From: a virus
Length of the DNA stretch: 53,320 bases
Strand: one strand, 5' to 3'
Virus record (IMG/VR): IMGVR_UViG_3300021963_000165
Location: 1 to 53,320 of that record
This document shows, piece after piece, positions 1 through 53,320 of the stretch; the stretch's first letter is position 1, and each line of letters starts with the position of its first letter. The translations under genes and the position numbers were made by a program. The notes beneath the pieces were generated by a model that did no database searches, had not been told where the DNA came from, and saw only the letters and a program-made list of their open reading frames with translations.

Positions 1-126
1 TGCACGATCGGCGGCAAGGGAAGCCGTCACGTCGAAACCGGCGGCCCGTTGCGCTTCAAGCCCGGTTCGGCCGTGGGTCGGTGCTTTGCTGTATTCATAC
101 AGCTTGACGGATCCCTCGGCGCGGGC
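1..126. repeat. Terminal direct repeat, left copy
   Basis: These bases are identical to 53181-53306 in the same orientation. Joining the two copies keeps a leftward reading frame open through the junction, so the molecule is circular, circularly permuted or terminally redundant. A repeat of about 127 bases is also what some short-read assemblers leave at the ends of a circular contig, so the repeat need not exist twice in the real molecule. Confidence 0.95.
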
Positions 127-813
127 CGCTTGCAACGCATCCGCAACGTTTACGCTTTCGCCCGCGTCAACCACAAGCCCGAACCGGCGCCGGATTGTTT
201 GCGCTTCAAGCGGTGAAGCCGGGAAGCGGCGCAAGTGCCATGCCACATCGTCGGTGCCGCGCAAGCGCACGGCAAGCGGCAAGCCATCGGCGGCCGCTTT
301 CGCCCATTGCCGGGCGATCGCCCATAGGATCGCCCGCGAATAGGTTTCAGGTTCGGCGATCATCGCCAGAGTCCGGCGGCCGCGGGCGGTTGCAACGGCC
401 GCGGAAAGCCCGCCGTGTCCCGCCCAAACGAGACAAGCGTTAGAGCAACCGGCCGTTGCCCACGGGCAGGCATTGTGACGGCGGGCGAGCTCGGCCGTTC
501 CGGTTTTGGCGGCAAGGGCGGCAAGGGCGGGAAGGAAAGCCCGCGGCGCAACCGCGGCATCGTTGCCGGGATCGATCGCCGCGGCAAGTGCACGGCCCGG
601 CAACGTGTGATGAATAACGGCCCGAGCGATCGCCGAACCTTTAACTAGTTTGGCGTTGTTGTCAGTTAGCAAGCCGTCAAGCGAAAGCCCGAAACGGGAA
701 AGCATGGCGGAAACATCCGCGGGAAGGGAAACGCGGGAACGGGAAGCGGAAAGCATGGCGTCAGGATCGAAAGGGAAAGCGCCGGTAAGGGCGGCGGGTG
801 AAACGTGAAACAT
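1..813 (-). CDS. gp88-like Cys-cluster protein, N-terminal part (gene wraps round the ends)
   Basis: Leftward gene starting at ATG 811-813, with an AGGAAAGG ribosome-binding site about ten bases upstream. It runs off the left end and continues at 53180 down to 52878 once the terminal repeat is joined, giving about 371 residues. Residues 116-127 hold CPWATAGCSNAC (Cys116, Cys123, Cys127), followed by an R-T segment, and residues about 181-193 hold AVRLRGTDDVAWH. This pattern resembles the phage Gene product 88 family as I know it, whose biochemical function is not established. The Cys spacing (CX6CX3C) is not the radical-SAM CX3CX2C. It is the last gene of the left operon and is preceded by a strong inverted repeat. 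Family assignment is from motif memory only. Confidence 0.7.
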   Translation of the reverse strand, partial: MFHVSPAALTGAFPFDPDAMLSASRSRVSLPADVSAMLSRFGLSLDGLLTDNNAKLVKGSAIARAVIHHTLPGRALAAAIDPGNDAAVAPRAFLPALAALAAKTGTAELARRHNACPWATAGCSNACLVWAGHGGLSAAVATARGRRTLAMIAEPETYSRAILWAIARQWAKAAADGLPLAVRLRGTDDVAWHLRRFPASPLEAQTIRRRFGLVVDAGESVNVADALQAARAEGSVKLYEYSKAPTHGRTGLEAQRAAGFDVTASLAADRA

Positions 814-832
814 CGAAAGGCCTTTCCTAGTT

Positions 833-866
833 GCCAATGGTTACAAGATGTGATGTAACCATTGGC
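833..866. promoter_or_regulatory. Perfect 13-bp inverted repeat upstream of the gp88-like gene
   Basis: GCCAATGGTTACA (833-845) and TGTAACCATTGGC (854-866) are exact reverse complements separated by eight bases. The element lies about 20 bases before the gp88-like start codon and just after the stop of the previous gene. No T-tract follows it on the minus strand, so it is more likely an operator or an RNA stem controlling translation than a terminator. Confidence 0.75.
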
Positions 867-888
867 GACATAAAAGGCAAGGGGAAAT

Positions 889-1077
889 TTAGTCCCGATC
901 GGAAACAATCCAGCGAACCGGCGCCGGTGCCGGTGAGATCAAACCGGCCCGGATTGCGTCGCTACGGGCGGCCGCGGCCTTTTCGGTTTCAAGGTATCGG
1001 GAAAGCACGGCCGAAAGCATGGCGGCCGTATCGGGATCAGTTGCGGCAATCCAGCCGCCCGGAACGCGGGAAAGCAT
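889..1077 (-). CDS. Small hypothetical protein, left operon
   Basis: 62 residues starting MLSRVPGGW and ending PVRWIVSDRD. The start overlaps the tail region of the upstream gene (stop at 1082), so translation is probably coupled; no clear ribosome-binding site is visible. The middle is Ala-rich and probably helical. The frame is open further upstream, so a longer form cannot be excluded. I do not recognise the family. Confidence 0.5.
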   Translation of the reverse strand: MLSRVPGGWIAATDPDTAAMLSAVLSRYLETEKAAAARSDAIRAGLISPAPAPVRWIVSDRD

Positions 1078-1081
1078 GGCG

Positions 1082-1267
1082 TTAAGAGATGAGATCGGCA
1101 AAGTCGCCCGCTTCAAGGTGACAGGCAAAGTCGGAAAGGAAAGCGTTAAGAGTCGCGGCGGGAAGCCATGAGACAAGCTCGCCGAGCACAAGCTCGGCGC
1201 CGAGATGCTCGGCGAAATCATGCGCGACGACACGCGGCGCCGCGGCGGGCAGAGTGTAGGAAAGCAC
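1082..1267 (-). CDS. Small hypothetical protein, left operon
   Basis: 61 residues from a GTG start, beginning MLSYTLPAAAPRVVAHDF and ending GDFADLIS. It lies six bases after the stop of the preceding gene and five bases before the next start, as expected for a tight operon. The protein is acidic and hydrophobic, with no motif I recognise. Confidence 0.5.
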   Translation of the reverse strand: MLSYTLPAAAPRVVAHDFAEHLGAELVLGELVSWLPAATLNAFLSDFACHLEAGDFADLIS

Positions 1268-1273
1268 GACGGA

Positions 1274-1489
1274 TCAAACGAAAGAAATAGGAGAGTCTGA
1301 AAAGCTGCCGGATGAAAATTCTTCTACGGCGTCAATAATGGAATCATCTACCGTTTCGCAATCGCCCGCAAAATAGAGTGAAGCTATTTCATCCATGATT
1401 GCGTCATGATTGCCGGCATGTTCGGCAAGGAAAGCACCATCAACGTCTACGGAAACAACGTGATTAACGTTAAGAAGGAAGCGTGCCAT
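1274..1489 (-). CDS. Small acidic hypothetical protein, left operon
   Basis: 71 residues from ATG at 1487-1489 (MARFLLNVNHVVSVDV). A TTG at 1511-1513 would add eight residues and overlap the upstream stop. The C-terminal half is strongly acidic (GDCETVDDSIIDAVEEF), a composition seen in DNA-mimic and adaptor proteins, though that is only a composition argument. The end of this gene and the end of the upstream gene carry the same TTTCGTTTGATCC sequence around their stop codons. Family unknown. Confidence 0.55.
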   Translation of the reverse strand: MARFLLNVNHVVSVDVDGAFLAEHAGNHDAIMDEIASLYFAGDCETVDDSIIDAVEEFSSGSFSDSPISFV

Positions 1490-1509
1490 AAGAGAGGAAA
1501 GCGAAAGGA

Positions 1510-2058
1510 TCAAACGAAAGCGGGAAGGGCGGCGCCGGTTGCCTGGCAGGCGGGAAGGGCGGCAACGGCCGCGGGATCCTCACCGGGAAGCGTCACGGGC
1601 GCGATGCGATACAGGCGGGCATCGCCGCGGCAAGCGCGATAAAGGCGCAACCGGCGGGCGGCCGTTTCAGCAGTCACAACGGCGGGCGACGCGGGAAGCC
1701 AGCCGGCCGCGGTGCCGCGAAAGGTTTCGATGCGAAAGGAAAGCATGGCGGAAAGATAAAAGCGTTTCGATCGGGCCGTTTCGCCCGTTGGTGGAATCAT
1801 GCCGAACCGGCGGCCAGGATCCCGGCACATGTAGACGGTTTCCCAACCGGCCCGCTTGTGCGGTGCTTTCGGGCGGTTGCGAGGGTACGGGCGAACCGAT
1901 CCCGGAAGGGAAAGGAAACGGGCGCCCGCGTGAAACCACACGGCCGGGCGATCCGTCAACCCGTTGTGGCAATCCGAAAGGATCGCCGCGGGCGGCCGAT
2001 AGTGTGCCAAACCGTACGCGGCGAAAGCATACGAAACCGAGCACCAGAGTTGGCACAC
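1510..2058 (-). CDS. Hypothetical protein, first gene of the left operon
   Basis: 182 residues from a GTG that lies inside the first CACCTAAC iteron, so binding there would affect both transcription and translation. Recognisable blocks are LAHYRPPAAILSDCHNG, RPAVWFHAGARF, RAGWETVYMCRDPGRRFG and a C-terminal Ala/Arg-rich part with RLYRACRGDARLYRIAP. The opposite strand also has long open frames because of the high GC content, but the leftward frame fits the overlapping operon to its left. A later start is possible. No family is recognised. Confidence 0.5.
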   Translation of the reverse strand: MCQLWCSVSYAFAAYGLAHYRPPAAILSDCHNGLTDRPAVWFHAGARFLSLPGSVRPYPRNRPKAPHKRAGWETVYMCRDPGRRFGMIPPTGETARSKRFYLSAMLSFRIETFRGTAAGWLPASPAVVTAETAARRLRLYRACRGDARLYRIAPVTLPGEDPAAVAALPACQATGAALPAFV

Positions 2059-2140
2059 CTAACTAGCTTGCACGGTTGGCACACCTAACCGTGCGCCGCG
2101 CCTAGTGCACCTAACCGTGCACAGGGTAAGTGCACCTAAC
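2056..2140. repeat. Four iterons with core CACCTAAC at 25-26 bp spacing
   Basis: CACCTAAC occurs at 2056-2063, 2082-2089, 2108-2115 and 2133-2140, all in the same direction, spaced 26, 26 and 25 bases. The two copies nearest the gene share TTGGCACACCTAAC; the other two share GTGCACCTAACCGT. The second copy lies in a hairpin (GCACGGTT, nine bases, AACCGTGC). Regular spacing of about 2.5 helical turns suggests a protein that binds in phase, either a regulator of the left operon or a replication initiator. Confidence 0.8.
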
Positions 2141-2164
2141 CGTTGGAGGTTTGTATAAAGAATA

Positions 2165-2203
2165 AAACAGCACGGTTTGTATTAGTTACAAACAGCACTG
2201 TTT
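2165..2203. promoter_or_regulatory. Pair of operator-like palindromes, AAACAGCACTGTTT type
   Basis: AAACAGCACTGTTT (2190-2203) is a perfect dyad around a CA centre. AAACAGCACGGTTT (2165-2178) is the same site with one change, 25 bases away. They sit between the iterons and the LexA-type boxes, in an AT-rich stretch with TATAAA-like sequence on the minus strand. They are good candidates for the operator of a phage regulator such as the Xre-type protein at 4105-4293, but nothing in the sequence ties them to it. Confidence 0.6.
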
Positions 2204-2220
2204 GAGATCTTTATACAAAT

Positions 2221-2267
2221 AGTACAAATGTACGAATAGTACAAATGTACTATAGTACAAATGTACT
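2221..2267. promoter_or_regulatory. Three tandem LexA-type (SOS) boxes
   Basis: AGTACAAATGTACT occurs exactly at 2238-2251 and 2254-2267, and with a last-base change at 2221-2234. Each site has 6-base arms (AGTACA/TGTACT; five in the first copy) and fits the cyanobacterial LexA consensus as I know it (RGTAC-N3-D-GTWC-B). The boxes flank a TATAAA-like minus-strand element. Occupation by host LexA should silence the leftward operon and DNA damage should release it. They could alternatively be iterons for another protein. Confidence 0.65.
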
Positions 2268-2344
2268 ATAGTAGATATATACTAATTACGAAATCAGCGT
2301 GTAATAGGGCGGGCTAAAAACCGCCCCATGCCGTGTGTGAAAAA

Positions 2345-2412
2345 GGGCCTTAAGAACCGACCCCTTGCAAGTCCCCCGGCCCTTAAAAACCGGCCGGCCG
2401 CGAGTCCCCCGG
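2345..2412. repeat. GC-rich 35-bp imperfect tandem repeat
   Basis: Two copies (2345-2379 and 2378-2412) share 27 of 35 bases, with the constant parts CTTAA-AACCG and AGTCCCCCGG. The second copy includes the stop codon and last codons of the gene ending at 2383. A GGGCGG/CCGCCC hairpin lies just upstream near 2310-2326. The stretch 2268-2344 contains no gene that I can support. Confidence 0.6.
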
Positions 2413-4104: not shown

Positions 4105-4293
4105 CTACCGCCGGACCTTCCGCCCTAAATTCCGCTCCACGGTCTGCAGCGCCAGGCCCAGGAAAACCGGAATGGCGCGGGTGCCCGTCTCCCAGCGAGC
4201 GATCGTCACCCGGTCGACACCGAGCTTCTCCGCCAGCTGCTGCTGGGTCAGTTCGAGGCGCTCCCGGAGTGCAGCGAGTTCTTCTTTGGTCAT
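4105..4293 (-). CDS. Xre-family helix-turn-helix regulator
   Basis: 62 residues starting MTKEELAALRERLELTQQQLAEKLG; a GTG at 4317 would add eight. Residues about 13-38 match the HTH_3 pattern (LTQQQLAEKLGVDRVTIARWETG), including the recognition helix. There is no dimerisation or peptidase domain beyond the HTH, so it is closer in size to Cro or a plasmid regulator than to CI. It is the only obvious Xre-type regulator in the genome and may bind the palindromes near 2165-2203. That pairing is inference. Confidence 0.8.
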   Translation of the reverse strand: MTKEELAALRERLELTQQQLAEKLGVDRVTIARWETGTRAIPVFLGLALQTVERNLGRKVRR

Positions 4294-4324
4294 GACAGAT
4301 GTGTAGCCGCTGGCCACAATACTG

Positions 4325-5943: not shown

Positions 5944-8532
5944 TTACACAGTCTCAAGCGTCTCAAGTGGGACCAACGTTGCGCGTGCGACGCCGCTGCC
6001 CTTGAACCGGACCGTTCCGTTACTGACCGAGGCACCAGTTAGCCGCCTCAAGGACTGCCGATAGGCGTTACCGGCCCACGGCGTGTCTTTGAGCAGGGCC
6101 TGCAGGTTGGTGCTGTTGTTGGCGACCGCCAGGGCACCACCGGCCACCTTCAGGCCGTAACGGCCGAGGATCGTCTCGATCTCGTCCGAGGGGTGATCAC
6201 GGCCGGGGATGGCGAAGATCACGCCGCGCTGGGCCATCTGCACCAGCTCGAGCACCGACATCTTCCGGGAGCCGTCCACCTGGATCAGGGACTGGAGGAT
6301 GTGGTTGATGCACTTCATCTCATCCGCGTCGGTGGCATCCACCTCGCGGCTTTCCCAGTCCATCATGTTGATCCACTCGATGGCCTGCTGCAGCGAAAGT
6401 TCGCCACCGCCACCGGGCTCGAGCGTCCAGGCACCGGCCAGCAACGTGCCGTGCTGATCGCCAAATCGCTGCCCGAAGCGCCGTGCAAGTGCAGCTGCGA
6501 GCGTCTTGGCATTCTTGCGAATGACGGGGATCTGCTGAATGGTTCTGGCGACAAGTTGCCGGCCGTTCTCTTCAGTGCAGGCGTTAAGAATCTCCTGCTC
6601 GAACTCGTTCCAGTCGTCCTTGTCCATGTGGTCTTTGCGTAGACCAAGGATGCAAAAACGATCGAGGTCAGCCCGCTGAATGAGGGCGACGTTGATGGAA
6701 CTGACGCAGAACATCGAGCGGATCTCAAAGGTGTTGGATCCGCCGTTGGTGGTGCCCTTGTAGATCTTGCCGCCTTCGGATGATGCGATCCGGGCAAGGG
6801 CGAGGATGTTCTGGACGACCTGCTTGTCCTTCTGTTCGTTCTGCTCGAGCTCGTCGAAAACGACCGGGATGGCGTCTGAGCGCAACTGACCGCGGAGGCC
6901 GGCTTCGGTAGTGCCACCGGTTGCACCCTCGAACATGCCGCCCAGCAGGGGCTTCATGAAGTGTTTGAGGATGGTGGTCTTGCCGGTGCCGGCACCGCCG
7001 GTGATCCAGACGTGCGGCCGCCAATCAAGAGAACCGCAGACGGGTGCCAGGACGATCCAGCCGAGCAGCAGGTTGGCTGAGGCGGGTGTTTCCCAGCGGA
7101 AGCGCTCTGCGATCAGGCGCACCTTGGCGCAGAGGTCATCAGAGAGCACCTGGCCGCCGGGGCCGTCGATCGCTTTGGCGTTCTCGTAGAAGTAGTAGCT
7201 CTTGAAGCCGGCCGGCAGCTTGGTGATGGGGTGCGAGCGCCCGTCGATCACGAGGCGGTTGCCGAGGTGCAGGATGACGCGGGAGGCATCAGCCCAGGCG
7301 CCGCGCCCCCGCACCCGGGAGGGGTCATAGACACCCTGGGAGATGCAGGAACCGAGGATGGCATTGACGGCCGAATCCCAGTCGATGCGGCCTTTGTCGT
7401 CGCCGAAACCGTTCGCCCACCACTCGAGGGGAGCGAGTGTCAGGAAGTGGCTCTTGTTGTGCTGAGCCGCGGTGAGTGCCACGACCTGGCAGGCCGCTGC
7501 GGGCAGGTAGTAGTAGATGCCGTGATCGAAGCCGAGGGGGCGGAAGGGCAGGCTGCTGGCGGGCTCGGGCTCGGGCTGCGGATCGATGGGGGCCGGTCGC
7601 GGTGGGAGCTGTCGCAGCTCCGGCGGCCCCGGCATGATCCGCCGTGGTGCCCGGTAGCCGTGCTCCTTGGCCCAGTACCAGAAGGTGCCGGCGGTGACTT
7701 CTGCGCCACCGGAGCCGGCCACCTGATCGATGCCGCGCCATTGCGGAGAGTGACTGGCCATCATCGAGATGGCGGTCTCAGCCGATGACCCGGTTTCCTG
7801 ACAGGCCCTGATCAGCCCCCAGAGAATGTTGCGGTACATCGGGTAGGTGTTGCCACCTGGCACCCGAGGCGGGATGCAGGAGAGGGCTTTCTGGATCTCG
7901 TCGAGCCCTTGGGTTTCGTAATCGGTAAAGGTCCGGGCCGCGACGTGACGCTGCACGATCTCTGGCTCGGGCAGCCGGGCGGCTAGATCAGCAAGGGTGT
8001 AGCGGGCGTCGGATTGGTGGATGATCGCAGCCTGCTCGCCGGTCTCGGGGTGTGGCGTGCCTGGCAGCCGCATGACCCTCGATGGGTTCTTGAGCTGGCG
8101 ATCGGCGTCGGCGTAATCGAGCAGTCGGGTTTGAACGGGTTTCCACTGCTCGGGCGATACCGGCTCGGAGAGGATCCAGTAGTTGTGGATGGACTTGCCA
8201 CCGGTGTCGACCTGCAGGCTGGGCTCCGGGAGTCCAAGGTCTTGCCAGGCGGTTACCTGCCAGTCCTTGGGTTTGTCATCCCACTCACAGAACAGGGCGA
8301 TGCACTCGGTGATGTCGGCATCCTTATCACCGCCGTTGTTGACGACGACATAGACGCCGCGCTTGTCGGCCACCCAGGACTCGACCAGCTGCTTGGTGGG
8401 CTCACCTTTGGCGCCGTGATCGTCGGCTTTGCGTGGATCGGTCTTGGCGTAGAAGCCACGCAGGCGGATGGCGCCTTTGGGCTTACCGAGAGCAGCTAGG
8501 AACTGGCGAGCGGCGTCGAAATCAGCGTGCAT
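5944..8532 (-). CDS. Replicative primase-helicase
   Basis: 862 residues. The N-terminal third resembles archaeo-eukaryotic-type (RepB/PrimPol-like) primases: FCEWDD at about 81-86 supplies acidic residues, GGKSIHNYW at 111-119, and NPSRVMRLPGTPH at 149-161. A proline-rich linker (about 300-330) precedes a P-loop helicase domain of the DUF927/virulence-associated E type, with Walker A GGAGTGKTT near residue 510 and Walker B PVVFDELEQ near 554. It should lay primers and unwind DNA at the phage fork. It follows the nuclease and SF2 helicase genes leftward and overlaps a tiny upstream gene by about ten bases. Catalysis is inferred from motifs. Confidence 0.85.
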   Translation of the reverse strand: MHADFDAARQFLAALGKPKGAIRLRGFYAKTDPRKADDHGAKGEPTKQLVESWVADKRGVYVVVNNGGDKDADITECIALFCEWDDKPKDWQVTAWQDLGLPEPSLQVDTGGKSIHNYWILSEPVSPEQWKPVQTRLLDYADADRQLKNPSRVMRLPGTPHPETGEQAAIIHQSDARYTLADLAARLPEPEIVQRHVAARTFTDYETQGLDEIQKALSCIPPRVPGGNTYPMYRNILWGLIRACQETGSSAETAISMMASHSPQWRGIDQVAGSGGAEVTAGTFWYWAKEHGYRAPRRIMPGPPELRQLPPRPAPIDPQPEPEPASSLPFRPLGFDHGIYYYLPAAACQVVALTAAQHNKSHFLTLAPLEWWANGFGDDKGRIDWDSAVNAILGSCISQGVYDPSRVRGRGAWADASRVILHLGNRLVIDGRSHPITKLPAGFKSYYFYENAKAIDGPGGQVLSDDLCAKVRLIAERFRWETPASANLLLGWIVLAPVCGSLDWRPHVWITGGAGTGKTTILKHFMKPLLGGMFEGATGGTTEAGLRGQLRSDAIPVVFDELEQNEQKDKQVVQNILALARIASSEGGKIYKGTTNGGSNTFEIRSMFCVSSINVALIQRADLDRFCILGLRKDHMDKDDWNEFEQEILNACTEENGRQLVARTIQQIPVIRKNAKTLAAALARRFGQRFGDQHGTLLAGAWTLEPGGGGELSLQQAIEWINMMDWESREVDATDADEMKCINHILQSLIQVDGSRKMSVLELVQMAQRGVIFAIPGRDHPSDEIETILGRYGLKVAGGALAVANNSTNLQALLKDTPWAGNAYRQSLRRLTGASVSNGTVRFKGSGVARATLVPLETLETV

Positions 8533-9080: not shown

Positions 9081-10392
9081 GTGGTGATTTCATTCCGCGG
9101 CGCCGGCCGATCTCGATGAGCTGCTCGAGGGTTTGCGCTTTGCCCTGCTCCTGGCGCTGCTGCCGGCGAAGGGTGTCGGGATCGAGCTCCACCAGCTCGC
9201 CATCACGCTCCTCAGGGCCTGATGCCACCGCCTCGCGTCGGTATTCATGCCCGCAACAGGGGCAGACGGGTGCTGGTGGGTGGCAGGCGTAGCAGCTGGG
9301 GCATTCTGTGACGGCTGGGGCCTTGCCGCCCTTCTTGGGTTTCGCGTCGAGGGTCCACTCGCGGGGATCTTGCGGAAAGCCGTGGGTGAACACACAGGAG
9401 GCGTGATCGAGAACGATGAGGTCGGGTTTACCGGGTGCGATGCGAAGGCCGCGGCCGACCGACTGCAGGTACATCGTGAGCGACTTGGTGGGTCGCAGCA
9501 GGATGACGCAGCCGATCTCGGGGCAGTCCACACCGGCGACCCAGAGGGCGCAGTTGCAGACGATGTCGATAGTTCCGCGGCGCAGACCGGTCAGCGCGGC
9601 CTGGCGCTCTTCACGGGTGGAGTTGCCGGAGATTGCAACAGCGCGGTAGCCGGCCTGGGTAAAGGCAGCAGCTGTGTGTTCTGCGTGCTTGATGTTGACG
9701 CAGAAGGCGACTGCACGGCGACCGTGGGCGTATTTGCGGTAGTGAGCAACGGCGTCACCAATGATGGAGGGCTTGTCGACGGCCTCGGCGAGCTGGTTGA
9801 GGGCGAAGTCACCCGCTTGGGTGCGGATGCCGGTTAAGTCTGGCTTGGTGGGGGCGTAGTAGCGGATGGGTGCGAGCAGGCCCTCGGCGATCAGGTCACC
9901 GGTGGAGCAGGTGGGGATGATGGTGTCGAACAGCTCCCCGAGGCCGCGGCCATCGAGACGCGCCGGTGAGCCAGACAAGCCCAGCAGCGGCGGATTGCCA
10001 GCGGCTTCGATGACCTTCTTATAGGTCTCAGCCACGGCCAGGTGGCACTCGTCGACGATGATCAGCCCCGGCGGCTTCACCACCGGCCTGCGCACTGCGG
10101 TCTGCACCGAAACCACCTGCACCGGCTTGAACGGGTTGCGGGGCATGCCGGCCATGATGAAGCCGTGCGGGATTTCGGCCTGCTCGAGGCGCCGGGCGGT
10201 GTCGTCGAGAATCTCGCGCAGGTGAGCGAGGAACCAAACATCGTTACCGCGTTGGACGGCGGATTTGATGATTTCTGCTGCTGTGTGGGTTTTGCCGAAA
10301 CCGGTTGCTGCGCACAGCAGCGGCGCTCGATAGCCCGCTCTGTAAGCTGCCCGGACATCTTCGATTGCCTTGATCTGACGTGGTCTAAGCAT
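9025..10392 (-). CDS. SF2 DEAD/DEAH-type helicase
   Basis: 455 residues. Motif I is CAATGFGKTHTA (about 27-38), motif II is IIVDECH (near 109-115), motif III LSGSPARLDG, motif V near GVDCPEI, and motif VI QSVGRGLR. Near the C-terminus lies a four-Cys zinc ribbon (CPSCYACHPPAPVCPCCG). It resembles the RecG/Res-like phage helicases found beside VRR-NUC genes. It is first in the leftward replication operon and faces the rightward recombination operon across a 111-base gap. Confidence 0.9.
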   Translation of the reverse strand: MLRPRQIKAIEDVRAAYRAGYRAPLLCAATGFGKTHTAAEIIKSAVQRGNDVWFLAHLREILDDTARRLEQAEIPHGFIMAGMPRNPFKPVQVVSVQTAVRRPVVKPPGLIIVDECHLAVAETYKKVIEAAGNPPLLGLSGSPARLDGRGLGELFDTIIPTCSTGDLIAEGLLAPIRYYAPTKPDLTGIRTQAGDFALNQLAEAVDKPSIIGDAVAHYRKYAHGRRAVAFCVNIKHAEHTAAAFTQAGYRAVAISGNSTREERQAALTGLRRGTIDIVCNCALWVAGVDCPEIGCVILLRPTKSLTMYLQSVGRGLRIAPGKPDLIVLDHASCVFTHGFPQDPREWTLDAKPKKGGKAPAVTECPSCYACHPPAPVCPCCGHEYRREAVASGPEERDGELVELDPDTLRRQQRQEQGKAQTLEQLIEIGRRRGMKSPHGWARHVLAARQRKQRAA

Positions 10393-10397
10393 GGGTC

Positions 10398-10426
10398 TTG
10401 ACCGCTGTGGTCAGCAATGGATAAAT
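10398..10426 (+). promoter_or_regulatory. Putative rightward promoter in the divergent gap
   Basis: TTGACC (10398-10403), 17 bases, then ATAAAT (10421-10426) fits a sigma70-type promoter of moderate strength for the recombination operon. The dyad GACC-gctgt-GGTC lies between the two boxes and could be an operator affecting both divergent operons. No experiment or comparison supports it here. Confidence 0.35.
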
Positions 10427-10503
10427 CAAAAAGTCGAGCAATCATAAACACTTAGCCGGTAAATGGCGTGAAGTGCGAAGAAATGCGACAAGGGAGATCG
10501 AAG

Positions 10504-11373: not shown

Positions 11374-12038
11374 TGACCGAACAAACATCTGCCAGCAACG
11401 CGCTTGCCGTGAGTCAAGACTCAGGCGGCGTTTTCACTGGGATTCAACAATTTGAAAATGCACAAAGGATAGGGAAGGCGCTCGCCAGCAGCGCTTTGGT
11501 GCCGAAAGAATACCAAGGGCAACAGGGGCTTGCGAATGTCCTAGTGGCGATGGAGATCGCCAACCGCATGAACCTGTCACCCTTGCAGGTGATGCAGAAC
11601 CTTCACATTATCCACGGGCGGCCTAGTTGGTCGTCACAATTCATTATCGCCATGATCAATGGCTGCGGTCGTTTTACACCGCTTGATTACAATGTAACCG
11701 GGGAAGGAGACACTCTCAGCTGCTTCGCGTACGCAACTGAGTTGGCCACCGGTAAAGAACTGCGCGGTCCGGTCGTCACGATGGCTATGGCCAAACGTGA
11801 GGGCTGGGCGACTAAGTCGGGTTCTAAGTGGCAAACGATGCCGGACCTGATGTGTCGGTATCGGGCGGCTGCCTTTTGGGGCCGTCTCTACGTGCCCGAG
11901 TTTCTAGTGGGCATGAAAACACAAGAGGAGGTCATCGATATTGAGACAGTAGAGGTGCAAGAAGCGCCTTCGATTGTTGCTGACCTAAATGAAAAGATTA
12001 AGACCGAGGGGGATTCCCAAGATGACGCAGTCTGGTGA
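11373..12038 (+). CDS. RecT-like single-strand annealing protein
   Basis: 221 residues starting MTEQTSASNALAV in a TAATG overlap with the nuclease. The conserved stretches ALVPKEYQ, NVLVAMEIANRMNLSPLQVMQNL, IIHGRPSWSSQFIIAMI and a later MCRYRAAAFWGR are those I know from RecT/Redbeta-superfamily phage annealases. It would anneal complementary strands produced by the RecE-like enzyme. The C-terminus is acidic. An upstream in-frame ATG lies inside the nuclease gene and is not used here. Confidence 0.8.
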   Translation: MTEQTSASNALAVSQDSGGVFTGIQQFENAQRIGKALASSALVPKEYQGQQGLANVLVAMEIANRMNLSPLQVMQNLHIIHGRPSWSSQFIIAMINGCGRFTPLDYNVTGEGDTLSCFAYATELATGKELRGPVVTMAMAKREGWATKSGSKWQTMPDLMCRYRAAAFWGRLYVPEFLVGMKTQEEVIDIETVEVQEAPSIVADLNEKIKTEGDSQDDAVW

Positions 12039-12237
12039 CTACCTGACACCCCGTGAGCTTGCTGAGCGATGGCGTAATGTCGTTGCGCTCAGCACGCTCG
12101 ACAACTGGAGGTCGCAGCAACGCGGCCCCCGGTGGTTCAAGGCTGGTGGTCGGGTGCTCTACCCGATTAACGAAGTCGTTCAATTCGAGCAGCGCAACAT
12201 GCGCGGCTTTCCCAACAACATCAACGGAGACCGATGA
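12022..12237 (+). CDS. Excisionase-like helix-turn-helix protein
   Basis: 71 residues from ATG 12022, with a purine-rich GAGGGGGA 10-17 bases upstream. The sequence LTPRELAERWRNVVALSTLDNWRSQQRGPRWFKAGGRVLYPINEVVQFEQ is the MerR-like winged HTH_17 fold of AlpA/Xis proteins. It may direct excision by the integrase at 19999 or regulate early genes. It overlaps the annealase by 17 bases. Other phage HTH_17 proteins are terminase-like or regulators, so the excisionase role is inference. Confidence 0.75.
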   Translation: MTQSGDYLTPRELAERWRNVVALSTLDNWRSQQRGPRWFKAGGRVLYPINEVVQFEQRNMRGFPNNINGDR

Positions 12238-15227: not shown

Positions 15228-15406
15228 TCCATCAGCAGGAGCTCCAGCCTGGCAATCTCGTTGACGGCCTGCTGGAGCTGAAACTGCTGCTGACAGCACA
15301 GCCTGTAGAGCATTGCAGTACGAGGATCCTCCCTGCGTGCAACGGTTTCAACTGCCCATTTTTCTTCTGTCGTCATTTCAGCTTGAAGCCACTCGCCGAA
15401 CGTCAT
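15212..15406 (-). CDS. Antisense small gene inside the rightward train
   Basis: 64 residues on the opposite strand (MTFGEWLQAEMTTEEKWAVE, ending ELLLMDYSNN). The C-terminal half is a Gln-rich coiled coil (QQQFQLQQAVNEIARLELLL). It fills a 178-base gap between rightward genes, overlapping the end of one and the start codon of the next. Composition and codon choice look coding. No ribosome-binding site is visible. It would produce RNA antisense to its neighbours. Confidence 0.55.
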   Translation of the reverse strand: MTFGEWLQAEMTTEEKWAVETVARREDPRTAMLYRLCCQQQFQLQQAVNEIARLELLLMDYSNN

Positions 15407-15884
15407 GGAGTTCAACAGCGATGATTTATCAACGCTAGGCACGCCTGTCTGTGAGCACAACAACCGATTTATCCGTGAATCGCGACCTCGCACTGATGGC
15501 CTGATCCGCCGCCGGTGGGAGTGCCGCGACTGCGGCGAGCGCTGGACGGTGTTCGGGCCTGATCGCAAGAAACGCCGCCGGCGCCGCAAGCCAGGCAAGC
15601 CACACCCGAAGCTGAAGCTCGAACACGTCCGCCGTGCGCTGATCGATCGGGAAACCTCGGATGTGAAGCTGGCGGCCGAGCTCGGTGTGTCGCGCCAGGC
15701 AATCCAGCAGATTCGTGCTGGCAAGACCTGGACGAAAGTGTTTCCGAACCTGAAGCGGCGGCCGCAGTGGCGCGATTGCACCGAATGCCGCCACTGGGAA
15801 GGCGATGGCTGCGGCCTGGGCTTCCCGGACCCGCTCGAGGAGGGCGTCGGTTTCGCCGTCGATTGCGATCTTTACGAAGTGTGA
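15405..15884 (+). CDS. Zinc-ribbon and HTH protein with CxxCxHW C-terminal domain
   Basis: 159 residues. An N-terminal zinc ribbon (C-E-H near 16-18, WECRDCGERW near 38-47) is like the NrdR ribbon. A basic linker follows, then an HTH (DVKLAAELGVSRQAIQQIRAGKTW, about 85-109). The C-terminus (CTECRHWEGDGCGLGFPDP, then FAVDCDLYEV) holds four to five Cys and matches a motif in the gene at 18536. It is probably a sequence-specific regulator. The combination is not one I know by name. Confidence 0.7.
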   Translation: MEFNSDDLSTLGTPVCEHNNRFIRESRPRTDGLIRRRWECRDCGERWTVFGPDRKKRRRRRKPGKPHPKLKLEHVRRALIDRETSDVKLAAELGVSRQAIQQIRAGKTWTKVFPNLKRRPQWRDCTECRHWEGDGCGLGFPDPLEEGVGFAVDCDLYEV

Positions 15885-16617: not shown

Positions 16618-16993
16618 AGACGATTTTCGGCTGATCCCGGAAACTGCCAAGTACATGTCAGTCCGCACGCAGAACGCCCTGCTGCGGGGTGGCTTCTTTA
16701 CCGCTGAGCAGATCATGCTGGCCAGCACCGCCGACCTGATGAAGCTCAGGAGCTTCGGCATGCAGGCACTGGGCGAGGTCGCTGCCTGGCGCGATGCGCT
16801 GATGAAGCCCGACCCGACGCTCTACCGCGAGACCCACGAGGCCGTCACCAAGGCACTGAACGAGTGCGGCAGCTGCATGGCCGACCAGGAGGCCGTGGTG
16901 GCGATGAAGGTGATCTGGAATCGGATCGCCCGGGGGCCGTTCACTGCTGCCCGGATCCGTCAGATGCTGATGCCGGCAGAGGTGGAGGCGTGA
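16604..16993 (+). CDS. RNA polymerase alpha-CTD-like protein
   Basis: 129 residues. Residues about 14-65 (AKYMSVRTQNALLRGGFFTAEQIMLASTADLMKLRSFGMQALGEVAAWRDAL) follow the bacterial alpha C-terminal domain: the VR-x-x-N-x-L helix, the T-x-x-(E/D)-L turn and the fG-x-x-(A/S)-L-x-E helix-hairpin-helix match E. coli RpoA by eye. In RpoA this fold contacts UP-element DNA and activators. A second helical domain with two Cys follows (about 85-128). A phage copy could redirect host polymerase or act as a plain HhH DNA-binding protein. Confidence 0.65.
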   Translation: MHPTEDDFRLIPETAKYMSVRTQNALLRGGFFTAEQIMLASTADLMKLRSFGMQALGEVAAWRDALMKPDPTLYRETHEAVTKALNECGSCMADQEAVVAMKVIWNRIARGPFTAARIRQMLMPAEVEA

Positions 16994-17187
16994 GCACTAT
17001 CCACCTAATTGGCGGCCCGGCTGATGGCCGTGAAGTGACCTGGAACTACGAAGGCTCGCAGCGGCTGCAGATGCCGATCTTTGGGCCAGATGGTCTGAGC
17101 TTCGGCAATTACCTGCAGGATCCAGACAACCCCAGCCGCTTTGTGTACGGCGGCATGGAGAAGCCGGAATGGAGCGCCGCTGAATGA
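16990..17187 (+). CDS. Hypothetical protein
   Basis: 65 residues from a GTG that overlaps the previous stop (GTGA). MSTIHLIGGPADGREVTWN resembles the N-terminus of small phage proteins with an IxLIGGPxDG motif that I have seen annotated only as hypothetical. It is beta-rich, with Y and F near the end (RFVYGGMEKPEW). Confidence 0.65.
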   Translation: MSTIHLIGGPADGREVTWNYEGSQRLQMPIFGPDGLSFGNYLQDPDNPSRFVYGGMEKPEWSAAE

Positions 17188-47850: not shown

Positions 47851-49484
47851 CAGTTAAGCGGTCCTTCTGGACGCTCAGATTGAACTTCATCCACCTTAGT
47901 CGCTTTCTTGCGACGCGATCTTGTCGGGCGGCGGGGAGGCTCCGGGGCAACAGACGCCTCCCCGCCGTCGACCACCGGCTCCTCGGGAGTTGAAGGAGCA
48001 GGCGATGCTGGTGCTGCAGCCATGTCTACATCGAGCTGGACGCCAAGGTCGGCGGCCGTCTTCCGCTCGCGAGCGATCTGCTGCAGGTTCTCGTCTAGAT
48101 CACCACCCAGCTGGGCGCAGATCTGGGCCTTGGTCATGTAGCCAGCGGCTTCCATCTCCCGGTAGGCCTTCACCTCCTTGAGCGGATCCACCCAGCTCCA
48201 GCCGCGGGCAAGCCATTTCGGGCTGTCGTAGCGCTCCGGCCGCAGTTCGTAGTCGGGCAGTGCCAGCTCGCCGCTGAGCACAGCCACGTCGAGCCACTCG
48301 CGGAACACCCGCATGTGGAAGTTTTCGATCAGGTAGGACTGCACCACCTTCCAGTGGTCGCGATCCTCGAGCAGCGACAGGCGGCTGCTGCTGTAGTTCG
48401 TCTCCGAGAAGTCGCGGCTCAGGGTTTCATAGGAGCAGCCGAAGCCAGACGCGAACCGGCGCGTCTTGGCACGCACGAAGTCCTCGTACTGGTCGTCCGG
48501 CGACGAGATGTTCGGCACAGTCACCTGCTGGCCGGGGTCTAGGTACTTGAACACCCCAGGCTCAAACTCGCTGATCCGCTGTTCGCCCTCAACGTCATCC
48601 GCCTCGAGCTCGCCCTCGGGGCTGGTGACGAAGCCCATCAGCGATGCCGCCGAGCGGGCACGCACAACCGCAGCCTCTTCGTAGCCCGCCAACTGGTGCG
48701 CATCGGTGATCACTGGGGCAAACCAGGGCACGCCTCGGTGCTGGTTGGGGCGCTCGGGCACAAACAGGTGGATCACGTCCCGCGCCGGCAGGAAGACGTG
48801 CTTCACCGTCGACTTGTCCGGCGCACCTTGGAACCAGTAATCGCCGGGGTGGCGGGTCAGGAACGCATACTGCACCGGGCGGCCGTAGCGGTCGATCTCG
48901 ACCCCCATGCGCCACTCGTTGCCCTTGGCGCTCACCGCACCGTTGTACTCATCGTCGAGCAGATCGCTTTCGATGATCTCCAGCGCCAGCGGAATCTTGC
49001 TGCCGCCAAACGGCTTGCGGTGGATACGAAACAGCACCTCGCCGCTCTCGGGTAGGGCGCCCGCGGCCAGCCACTCAAACATGTGGAAGCTGCTCTTGCC
49101 CGCCACATCGCAGTGATCTTTCCGGCACCACCGCTCCCACTTGGTCTCGGTTGCCGCGTTGATCCGCTCGTCGCGCTTGTTGCCGCGCAGGGTCATCACC
49201 TGCGACTGCAGCTTGATGCCCTGACCCACCACGTTGATCTGGGTGGTGCGCTTTGCCTGCTTTGCGTACGGGTTGTCCCGCACCATCTGGCGGCTGCGGT
49301 CACGCAGCTTGCGCAGGCTGGTCTTGATCTCGGCGTCGGCGCTGGTGCCGTTGCTGATCCAGTCGCTCGTCAGCCGGTTGATGATCGCGCCCGCATAGGT
49401 GCGCCGCCTGCGCCGAGCCGGTTCCGGCGCCGCAGGCTTCGGCCCAAATCCGAGGGCCGTCATGACTCGAGTGCGGATGCCCAT
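47850..49484 (-). CDS. Portal protein, lambda gpB family
   Basis: 544 residues. MGIRTRVMTALGFGPKP and a charged N-terminus, then the lambda-portal core (RQMVRDNPYAKQAKRTTQINVVGQGI, ALEIIESDLLDDEYNG, DVIHLFVPERPNQHRGVPWFAPVI, SCYETLSRDFSETNYSSSRLS-like segment). The C-terminal 60 residues are Pro/Arg-rich and disordered. It forms the dodecameric DNA gate. Confidence 0.95.
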   Translation of the reverse strand: MGIRTRVMTALGFGPKPAAPEPARRRRRTYAGAIINRLTSDWISNGTSADAEIKTSLRKLRDRSRQMVRDNPYAKQAKRTTQINVVGQGIKLQSQVMTLRGNKRDERINAATETKWERWCRKDHCDVAGKSSFHMFEWLAAGALPESGEVLFRIHRKPFGGSKIPLALEIIESDLLDDEYNGAVSAKGNEWRMGVEIDRYGRPVQYAFLTRHPGDYWFQGAPDKSTVKHVFLPARDVIHLFVPERPNQHRGVPWFAPVITDAHQLAGYEEAAVVRARSAASLMGFVTSPEGELEADDVEGEQRISEFEPGVFKYLDPGQQVTVPNISSPDDQYEDFVRAKTRRFASGFGCSYETLSRDFSETNYSSSRLSLLEDRDHWKVVQSYLIENFHMRVFREWLDVAVLSGELALPDYELRPERYDSPKWLARGWSWVDPLKEVKAYREMEAAGYMTKAQICAQLGGDLDENLQQIARERKTAADLGVQLDVDMAAAPASPAPSTPEEPVVDGGEASVAPEPPRRPTRSRRKKATKVDEVQSERPEGPLN

Positions 49485-52804: not shown

Positions 52805-52851
52805 GCCCGCCGATAGGGCGGGCATGAAAAAGCCGCCCGGTTAAGGGCGGC
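52805..52851 (-). terminator. Two tandem hairpin terminators of the left operon
   Basis: On the minus strand, GCCGCCC-TTAACC-GGGCGGC (52832-52851) is followed by five T (52827-52831, minus sense) and then a second stem GCCCGCC/GGCGGGC (52805-52823) followed by TTT. They lie 27 bases after the gp88-like stop and end that operon before it can run into the terminases. Both hairpins are long and GC-rich. Confidence 0.75.
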
Positions 52852-52877
52852 CGTTTCGCTTTCGGCTTCGTCGCCTG

Positions 52878-53320
52878 TCAGTTCGGCAATAGCTGGATCA
52901 AGCCGTCAGGCAAGCGAACCGCGGGAGCATTGGGCAGGATGAAACCGGAAACCGCAGGATCGGCACCGCGGGAACGTTTCGCCCGCAAGATCACGGCAAC
53001 CTTTGCCGGATCGTTCCACCGATGATCGGTTTCGTCGCCCGGTACGGTTTGGAGGATCATCGTTTCGCCGTTGTAGGAGATTGCGACGCGGGCGGGAAGC
53101 GGGTCGGCTTTGCCTAGTTCGATCGGAATCGCAATCCGAAAGCCCGCCCTAGCAGCCGCGAAAGCGTCACGGGCGGCCGTTGCACGATCGGCGGCAAGGG
53201 AAGCCGTCACGTCGAAACCGGCGGCCCGTTGCGCTTCAAGCCCGGTTCGGCCGTGGGTCGGTGCTTTGCTGTATTCATACAGCTTGACGGATCCCTCGGC
53301 GCGGGCAGTTTGGAACGAAT
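52878..53320 (-). CDS. gp88-like protein, C-terminal part
   Basis: Continuation of the leftward gene that starts at 813. The segment reads KLYEYSKAPTHGRTG through to the C-terminal DGLIQLLPN and a stop at 52878. An apparent internal GTG near 53210 is not needed as a start, because the frame is open to the end of the window and joins the left end in phase. The stop is followed by two hairpins with T-tracts on the minus strand, which marks the end of the operon. Confidence 0.7.
   Translation of the reverse strand, partial: SFQTARAEGSVKLYEYSKAPTHGRTGLEAQRAAGFDVTASLAADRATAARDAFAAARAGFRIAIPIELGKADPLPARVAISYNGETMILQTVPGDETDHRWNDPAKVAVILRAKRSRGADPAVSGFILPNAPAVRLPDGLIQLLPN
53181..53306. repeat. Terminal direct repeat, right copy
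   Basis: Exact copy of the first 126 bases. The last 14 bases of the window (53307-53320) then differ from bases 127-140 at four positions. The leftward frame stays open in both versions (residues T-Q-F-S here, A-Q-L-A at the left end). That fits a strain variant of the same gene at least as well as random sequence error. Confidence 0.95.

Follow-up and report, generated by a model that had tools for sequence, protein, structure and literature searches.

What does a tight cluster of LexA-type sites do in the genome of a cyanophage, and which genes does it govern? The question is raised by a control region in a 53.3 kb contig of a freshwater virus, IMG/VR record IMGVR_UViG_3300021963_000165, the whole of which (53,320 nucleotides, hereafter the window) was analysed. 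An earlier note on this DNA had seen there an SOS-controlled switch in which host LexA might stand in for a CI repressor. The reading favoured here keeps the regulator and changes the target: host LexA, bound at a tandem operator, would keep an accessory operon of this integrase-bearing cyanophage repressed until DNA damage releases it, a proposal based on sequence comparison to which a probability of roughly 0.6 can be given.

The three 14-base dyads announced by the earlier note are found, all on the plus strand, at 2221..2234 (box 1, AGTACAAATGTACG), 2238..2251 (box 2, AGTACAAATGTACT) and 2254..2267 (box 3, again AGTACAAATGTACT), with start-to-start spacings of 17 and 16. The pattern RGTACNNNDGTWCB matches the window at these three boxes only, giving five strand-hits vs 0.22 expected by chance and a maximum of three in 100 shuffles of the window. 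On a LexA matrix derived from 46 cyanobacterial sites in the literature (Li et al. 2010, PMC3091678), with a maximum of 24.0 bits, box 1 reaches 20.7 bits and boxes 2 and 3 both reach 23.5 bits, vs 17.6 bits for the best site in 40 simulated Markov genomes; under a local AT-rich null, the probability of at least three boxes was 0 in 100,000 trials. GTAC is mildly avoided genome-wide (86 seen vs 123 expected), an avoidance that was rejected as an explanation of the array. The boxes fit the 14-bp RGTACNNNDGTWCB as well as AGTACWNWTGTACT, the cyanobacterial LexA site described upstream of recA, lexA and umuD (Li et al. 2010, PMC3091678), and the cyanobacterial LexA-type consensus proposed for them is borne out by the matrix scan. 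A decayed fourth copy, AGTAGATATATACT (2270..2283, plus strand), corresponds to an intact or near-intact box in three relatives (G008, G016 and G015). A search at the array for a consensus sigma-70 promoter gave none.

The orientation of the surrounding genes determines what the array could control. The ends of the contig overlap, its start sequence recurring at 53181, and the same end junction is crossed by another contig (L033), so that the genome can be taken as circular, of about 53.18 kb. The replication operon runs leftward from 10392 (helicase) to 2383 and terminates at the array rather than beginning there, and the control region is the gap between its 3' end and a second leftward operon. 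In leftward order come the LexA boxes (2267-2221, with the decayed copy at 2283-2270), the dyads discussed below (2202-2166), tandem repeats (2143-2045) and the left genes. Because the replication operon ends at the array, the left operon that had been placed directly downstream of the boxes must be the minus-strand genes running from 2058 to 1 and circularly on to 52878; for these the placement holds, for the replication operon it does not. A motif, GGGACTTGCAAGGGGTCGGTTTTTAA, is repeated at the 3' end of the replication operon (window 2345-2410), and is conserved in array-bearing relatives and in G006.

Which host does this phage belong to? Its terminase is nearest to that of Synechococcus phage S-LBS1, no near DNA match to window 1-24000 was found among named phages, and relatives of the family lie within cyanobacterial genomes (Cyanobium Cruz-8D1 and cyanobacterial MAGs). 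An integrase is present in all near-complete array-bearing core relatives (G000, G002, G003, G004, G008 and G012). The family is cyanobacterium-linked and integrase-bearing, in agreement with the cyanobacterial host assumed in the earlier note. Contig L033, a MAG contig labelled Gammaproteobacteria, carries the phage at 100% identity and diverges at 16835-17041, just past the GP88 terminator; mis-binning, a chimera or a junction are options for this divergence, and L033, the closest genome holding the phage itself, is probably mis-binned.

The leftward unit, all on the minus strand, starts with an ORF of up to 182 aa (1510..2058) that has no family match and, as a 182-aa gene, no relatives in IMG/VR, its C-terminal part alone being conserved, from an internal ATG near 1746. 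Smaller ORFs follow at 1274..1513 and 1082..1267, whose function was not recognised (by family searches for the former), and at 889..1077, assigned to phrog_14769, of unknown function. Next comes a GP88-family gene (PF17338), whose N-terminal part (1..813, recognised via L033:15659-16774) continues across the circular junction into a C-terminal part at 52878..53180, identified from the junction and by family search. An intrinsic terminator-like hairpin (52831..52852, corresponding to L033 16800-16821) lies after GP88 and before the terminase. Family searches recognised none of the genes of this unit as serving replication, lysis, integration or antirepression, GP88 gave no meaningful match against the PDB, and PADLOC returned generic HTH matches only. 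Judged by its predicted content, the operon downstream of the boxes does not look like a lysis/lysogeny switch and would be an accessory module; should transcription pass the hairpin late in infection, late genes might come under the array as well. The left operon (window 1-2000) also displays a strong strand bias, with an AT skew of +0.23 on the plus strand, and repeated CCGCCATGCTTTCC start contexts.

The boxes are accompanied by other dyads, including the two further palindromes of the earlier note: AACAGCACGGTT at 2166..2177, conserved and a candidate operator of a phage XRE protein, which would bind it, and AACAGCACTGTT at 2191..2202, whose distance to LexA box 1 is constant across five phages. 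Together they give 3 strand-hits vs 0.31 expected. From the AAACAGTGCTGTTT dyad to box 1, the last of the LexA boxes, the spacing is identical in G000, G003, G008, G016 and G015, although the flanks diverge. A dyad GTTTGTA-N5-TACAAAC (2175..2193), read from the sequence, is conserved in the alignment that shows this spacing, and TTTGTATAAAGA (2150-2161) and TCTTTATACAAA (2208-2219) form an inverted pair. The XRE protein itself (70 aa, XRE/HTH_3 by family search; 4105..4317, minus strand) is a candidate Cro/repressor-like regulator; since it is present in four of the five fixed-spacing phages (G000, G003, G008 and G016), it is likely to be a second regulator and a candidate binder of the AACAG dyads. 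Between the array and the first left gene lie four tandem repeats of 25-26 bp (2045..2143). A repeat array of this kind, variable in copy number, occupies the same place in most family members, including G003 and G008, with or without LexA boxes, and the 26-bp repeat counts 11 copies in G005 and 7 in G006, both devoid of LexA boxes. These repeats are possibly iterons or a leader element. No Rfam match to a structured RNA was found.

To what extent is this arrangement conserved? Among relatives gathered by primase search, from 86% down to about 53% identity, 13 records carry 2-10 boxes each, in near-ideal forms, with every site above 16 bits falling in one cluster per record. The position is shared as well: each of the 13 has its boxes past the 3' end of the primase operon, in one and the same syntenic gap, so that the search of relatives suggested by the earlier note speaks for conserved boxes. 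Where the record is long enough, the array is followed by accessory genes, usually GP88, and then by the terminase; G025 has no recognised GP88 behind its array. G005 and G006 share the same architecture and the 26-bp repeats, with other dyads in place of the LexA boxes, which suggests that the promoter position stays fixed and that the LexA element in it can be exchanged as a module.

The sites can also be compared with those of the hosts. In three genomes of the host group, from the isolate Cyanobium Cruz-8D1 and two cyanobacterial MAGs, the best-scoring site lies directly upstream of lexA, recA and umuD-type genes, for example GGTACACCTGTATC and GGTACATCTGTATC at lexA, AGTACGCCCGTACT at recA, and AGTACATTCGTACT, among others, at umuD-type genes. 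Host LexA in L104 retains, as judged by eye, the Ala-Gly, Ser and Lys residues needed for self-cleavage, and mitomycin C induces recA, lexA and umuC in marine Synechococcus (PMC3744912). Most phage boxes outscore those of the host (23.5 vs 11-22 bits), and the AGTACRNNTGTACT form is rare in hosts, with 0-5 occurrences per genome of 1.3-4 Mb. None of 101 picocyanobacterial genomes contains a tandem (twin) array, hence no prophage copy of the array is present there, and on this count the idea that cyanobacterial genomes carry twin arrays was rejected. In picocyanobacterial loci L381, L377, L371, L372 and L383, a Cys-rich gene of 92-98 aa (CMTCEHF...CPIHQRLIxxGEH) adjoins single LexA boxes and is, by this position, a candidate SOS gene.

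Are such arrays restricted to one phage family? IMG/VR was scanned for twin GTACANNTGTAC dyads with the flanking letters left free, yielding 96 stretches, 80 of which were fetched. LexA-type flanks occur in 64 of these 80 contigs, and 166 of 224 dyads are flanked by A..T, A..C or G..T, a pattern that a control dyad does not display. A T7-like podovirus group (16 contigs), sharing up to 16 ORFs with P-SSP6/P-SSP7, carries up to 16 boxes in a noncoding stretch beside terL, upstream of DUF7178 genes. Uncultured marine T7-like cyanopodoviruses with arrays beside terL or at the early-gene start include L159, L160, L162, L164, L211, L220, L226 and L232. No boxes were found in cultured P-SSP6, P-SSP7 and S-LBS1, scanned whole, nor in the scanned parts of P-SSP10 and NATL2A-133, and blastn searches for the array in named phages gave chance-level matches only. 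GP88 lies downstream of the array in the unrelated contigs L158, L217, L182 and L229; the array is found with DUF7178 in L203 and L209 and with DUF7227 in L191, and in L192 terL is directly preceded by eight boxes spaced 17 bp apart.

A second type of host-regulator site is concentrated near these arrays. Fur/Zur-type 7-1-7 boxes (TGAGAATNATTCTCA, with at most two mismatches) number 52 in the 85.7 kb lying within 400 bp of LexA arrays, vs 20 in 1.296 Mb elsewhere on the same contigs, a ratio that does not count independent events, as there are contigs that enter twice and sites that relatives have in common. Such boxes are located in G004 (L127) at 8468 and 8676, in G012 (L135) at about 48144-48190 and in L166 at 11176, as well as in L191 (4488-4620), L229 (4003-4156) and about 20 more contigs; the window itself has none. 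In 13 host genomes few boxes of the exact form occur, and the Synechococcus Zur box has been published as NTNANAATGATNATCATTNTNAN (PMC9337993). It is tentatively proposed, at somewhat less than even odds, that many unrelated and mostly uncultured cyanophages, both siphovirus-like phages with an integrase and T7-like podoviruses, have convergently built promoters from host-regulator sites (tandem LexA, often Fur/Zur-type) before GP88, DUF7178 or DUF7227 operons, amounting to a widespread reading of host DNA damage and metal status for accessory or early genes.

Which factor binds the array, and to what end? The lysogeny switch of the earlier note, with host LexA replacing CI as the repressor as in CTXphi or GIL01, draws support from the LexA-type boxes, from the integrase of the core genomes and from the lack of an encoded S24 repressor: as claimed, no CI/LexA-like peptidase repressor was detected, Peptidase_S24 being absent from the window and from 27 of 27 related records, with positive controls. 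However, a missing S24 protein is not enough to cast LexA as the repressor. The leftward unit stops at the terminator-like hairpin after GP88 without any recognisable replication, lysis, integration or antirepressor gene. Replication begins with genes at 10392/10468, and the early divergent promoter region found there (10392-10468) is free of boxes; no LexA box was found at the promoter of lytic, replication or antirepressor genes. The XRE protein, with its candidate dyads beside the boxes, would be a second regulator, and arrays also occur in T7-like podoviruses, for which a role in replacing CI is not obvious. With no switch-type gene in the leftward unit and no box at 10392-10468, a direct LexA-run lysogeny switch is not supported and appears improbable; the XRE protein and a Zn-ribbon/HTH protein (15405-15884) are candidates for the lysogeny repressor. 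It is likewise unlikely, if a little less so, that the array is bound by a phage-encoded protein, be it an HTH_17 protein (82 aa, 11989-12237), the 70-aa XRE protein or a ribbon-helix-helix protein beside the primase. The HTH_17 protein does occur in every array-bearing family record covering its locus and is absent from the array-free G005 and G006, but RecT has a very similar pattern, so that this correlation is not specific. The XRE protein, present in 4 of the 13 array phages only, is rejected as the binder of the GTAC boxes, as is the ribbon-helix-helix protein, which does not track the array, being present in the array-free G005, G006 and G018 and absent from the array-bearing G000, G003 and G008. 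In the array contigs of the T7-like group, which are partial, none of the HTH_17, Zn-HTH, XRE and 155-aa proteins has a homologue, and the site matches the known host LexA consensus, flanks included. A phage MarR protein was also discarded, the paper describing it giving no GTAC site (PMC9692554). No recognised phage DNA-binding protein is common to the array-bearing groups, as far as their partial contigs extend, and this, together with the exact LexA consensus, suggests host LexA as the economical explanation.

Other functions would not require a repressor at all. The region could be a replication origin or a partition site, with the 26-bp repeats as iterons and the 16-bp array and its AT-rich stretch as an unwinding or centromere part; it is indeed the most AT-rich spot of the genome (GC minimum 0.23), with tandem repeats alongside, and repeats of similar look precede parA in Nostoc plasmids. 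Those plasmid repeats, however, are a different motif without GTACNNNNGTAC, and the cyanobacterial plasmid matches were rejected as relatives of the array, a different repeat lying upstream of parA. No ParA, ParB or Rep gene is adjacent and no repeats shared with a plasmid-type partition site (parC) were found, there is no clear GC skew switch, and the number of boxes varies from 2 to 10, each of them still LexA-like, all of which makes this explanation very unlikely, even if the 26-bp repeats themselves may be origin iterons. Least probable is a decoy function, in which many strong boxes would sequester host LexA and thereby turn on repair and nucleotide genes during infection. The strength of the phage boxes relative to those of the host, and their abundance in T7-like phages (up to 16), are in line with titration, but this phage has just three, and their constant spacing to a second dyad, at the position of a promoter, suggests local regulation.

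Repression of the accessory operon by host LexA is thus the preferred reading. What speaks against it is the presence pattern of the HTH_17 protein, the missing consensus promoter at the array, the likely mis-binning of L033, the named phages free of boxes, and the 101 picocyanobacterial genomes without twin arrays, which leave lysogeny of these phages in such hosts hypothetical. In an undamaged picocyanobacterial host, LexA dimers would sit on the tandem boxes and block the operon promoter, and upon DNA damage, RecA-stimulated cleavage of LexA would free it. In the sub-group to which the window belongs, a second input would act at the same promoter, probably the 70-aa XRE protein bound to AACAGCACTGTT dyads. 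Through the array the phage probably senses how damaged its host is, and part of the phage programme would respond to it. Near-ideal tandem LexA boxes in several unrelated cyanophage groups would connect UV and DNA damage with the infection of organisms that are major primary producers in aquatic systems, and the arrays would give a testable clue to the timing of GP88 and DUF7178 gene action.

Host LexA has been co-opted by phages in Vibrio, Bacillus and enterobacteria, and no report of LexA boxes in cyanophages was found in the open literature searched. The closest precedents are LexA-run phages, which include GIL01 (PMC4551915) and others (PMC9437464), and phages with arrays of host CtrA sites (PMC9437464). 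Like GIL01 (PMC4551915) and CTXphi, the present phage has a promoter with several host-LexA boxes and no self-cleaving phage repressor was found; in those phages, however, LexA controls transcription for lytic growth, whereas here the boxes precede an accessory GP88 operon with a terminator-like hairpin. The Gifsy antirepressors and 186 tum (compare PMC3121763) offer another parallel, since in these integrating phages too a LexA box precedes a small operon that lies away from the main repressor region, but no antirepressor is recognised here and GP88 has no known function. A likeness in layout may be drawn with the CtrA-site arrays of alphaproteobacterial LPEG phages, for which CtrA binding has been demonstrated (PMC9437464): in both cases dense, high-scoring sites for a host global regulator lie in one intergenic or terminal region before genes of unknown function, and the arrays were gained independently in unrelated phages. 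The regulator differs, LexA (DNA damage) instead of CtrA (cell cycle), as do the hosts, which are cyanobacteria, and binding by LexA is here predicted. Finally, the site itself is that of the cyanobacterial LexA regulon (PMC3091678), AGTACWNWTGTACT, but where the hosts have single degenerate sites, the phages have tandem, near-ideal copies.
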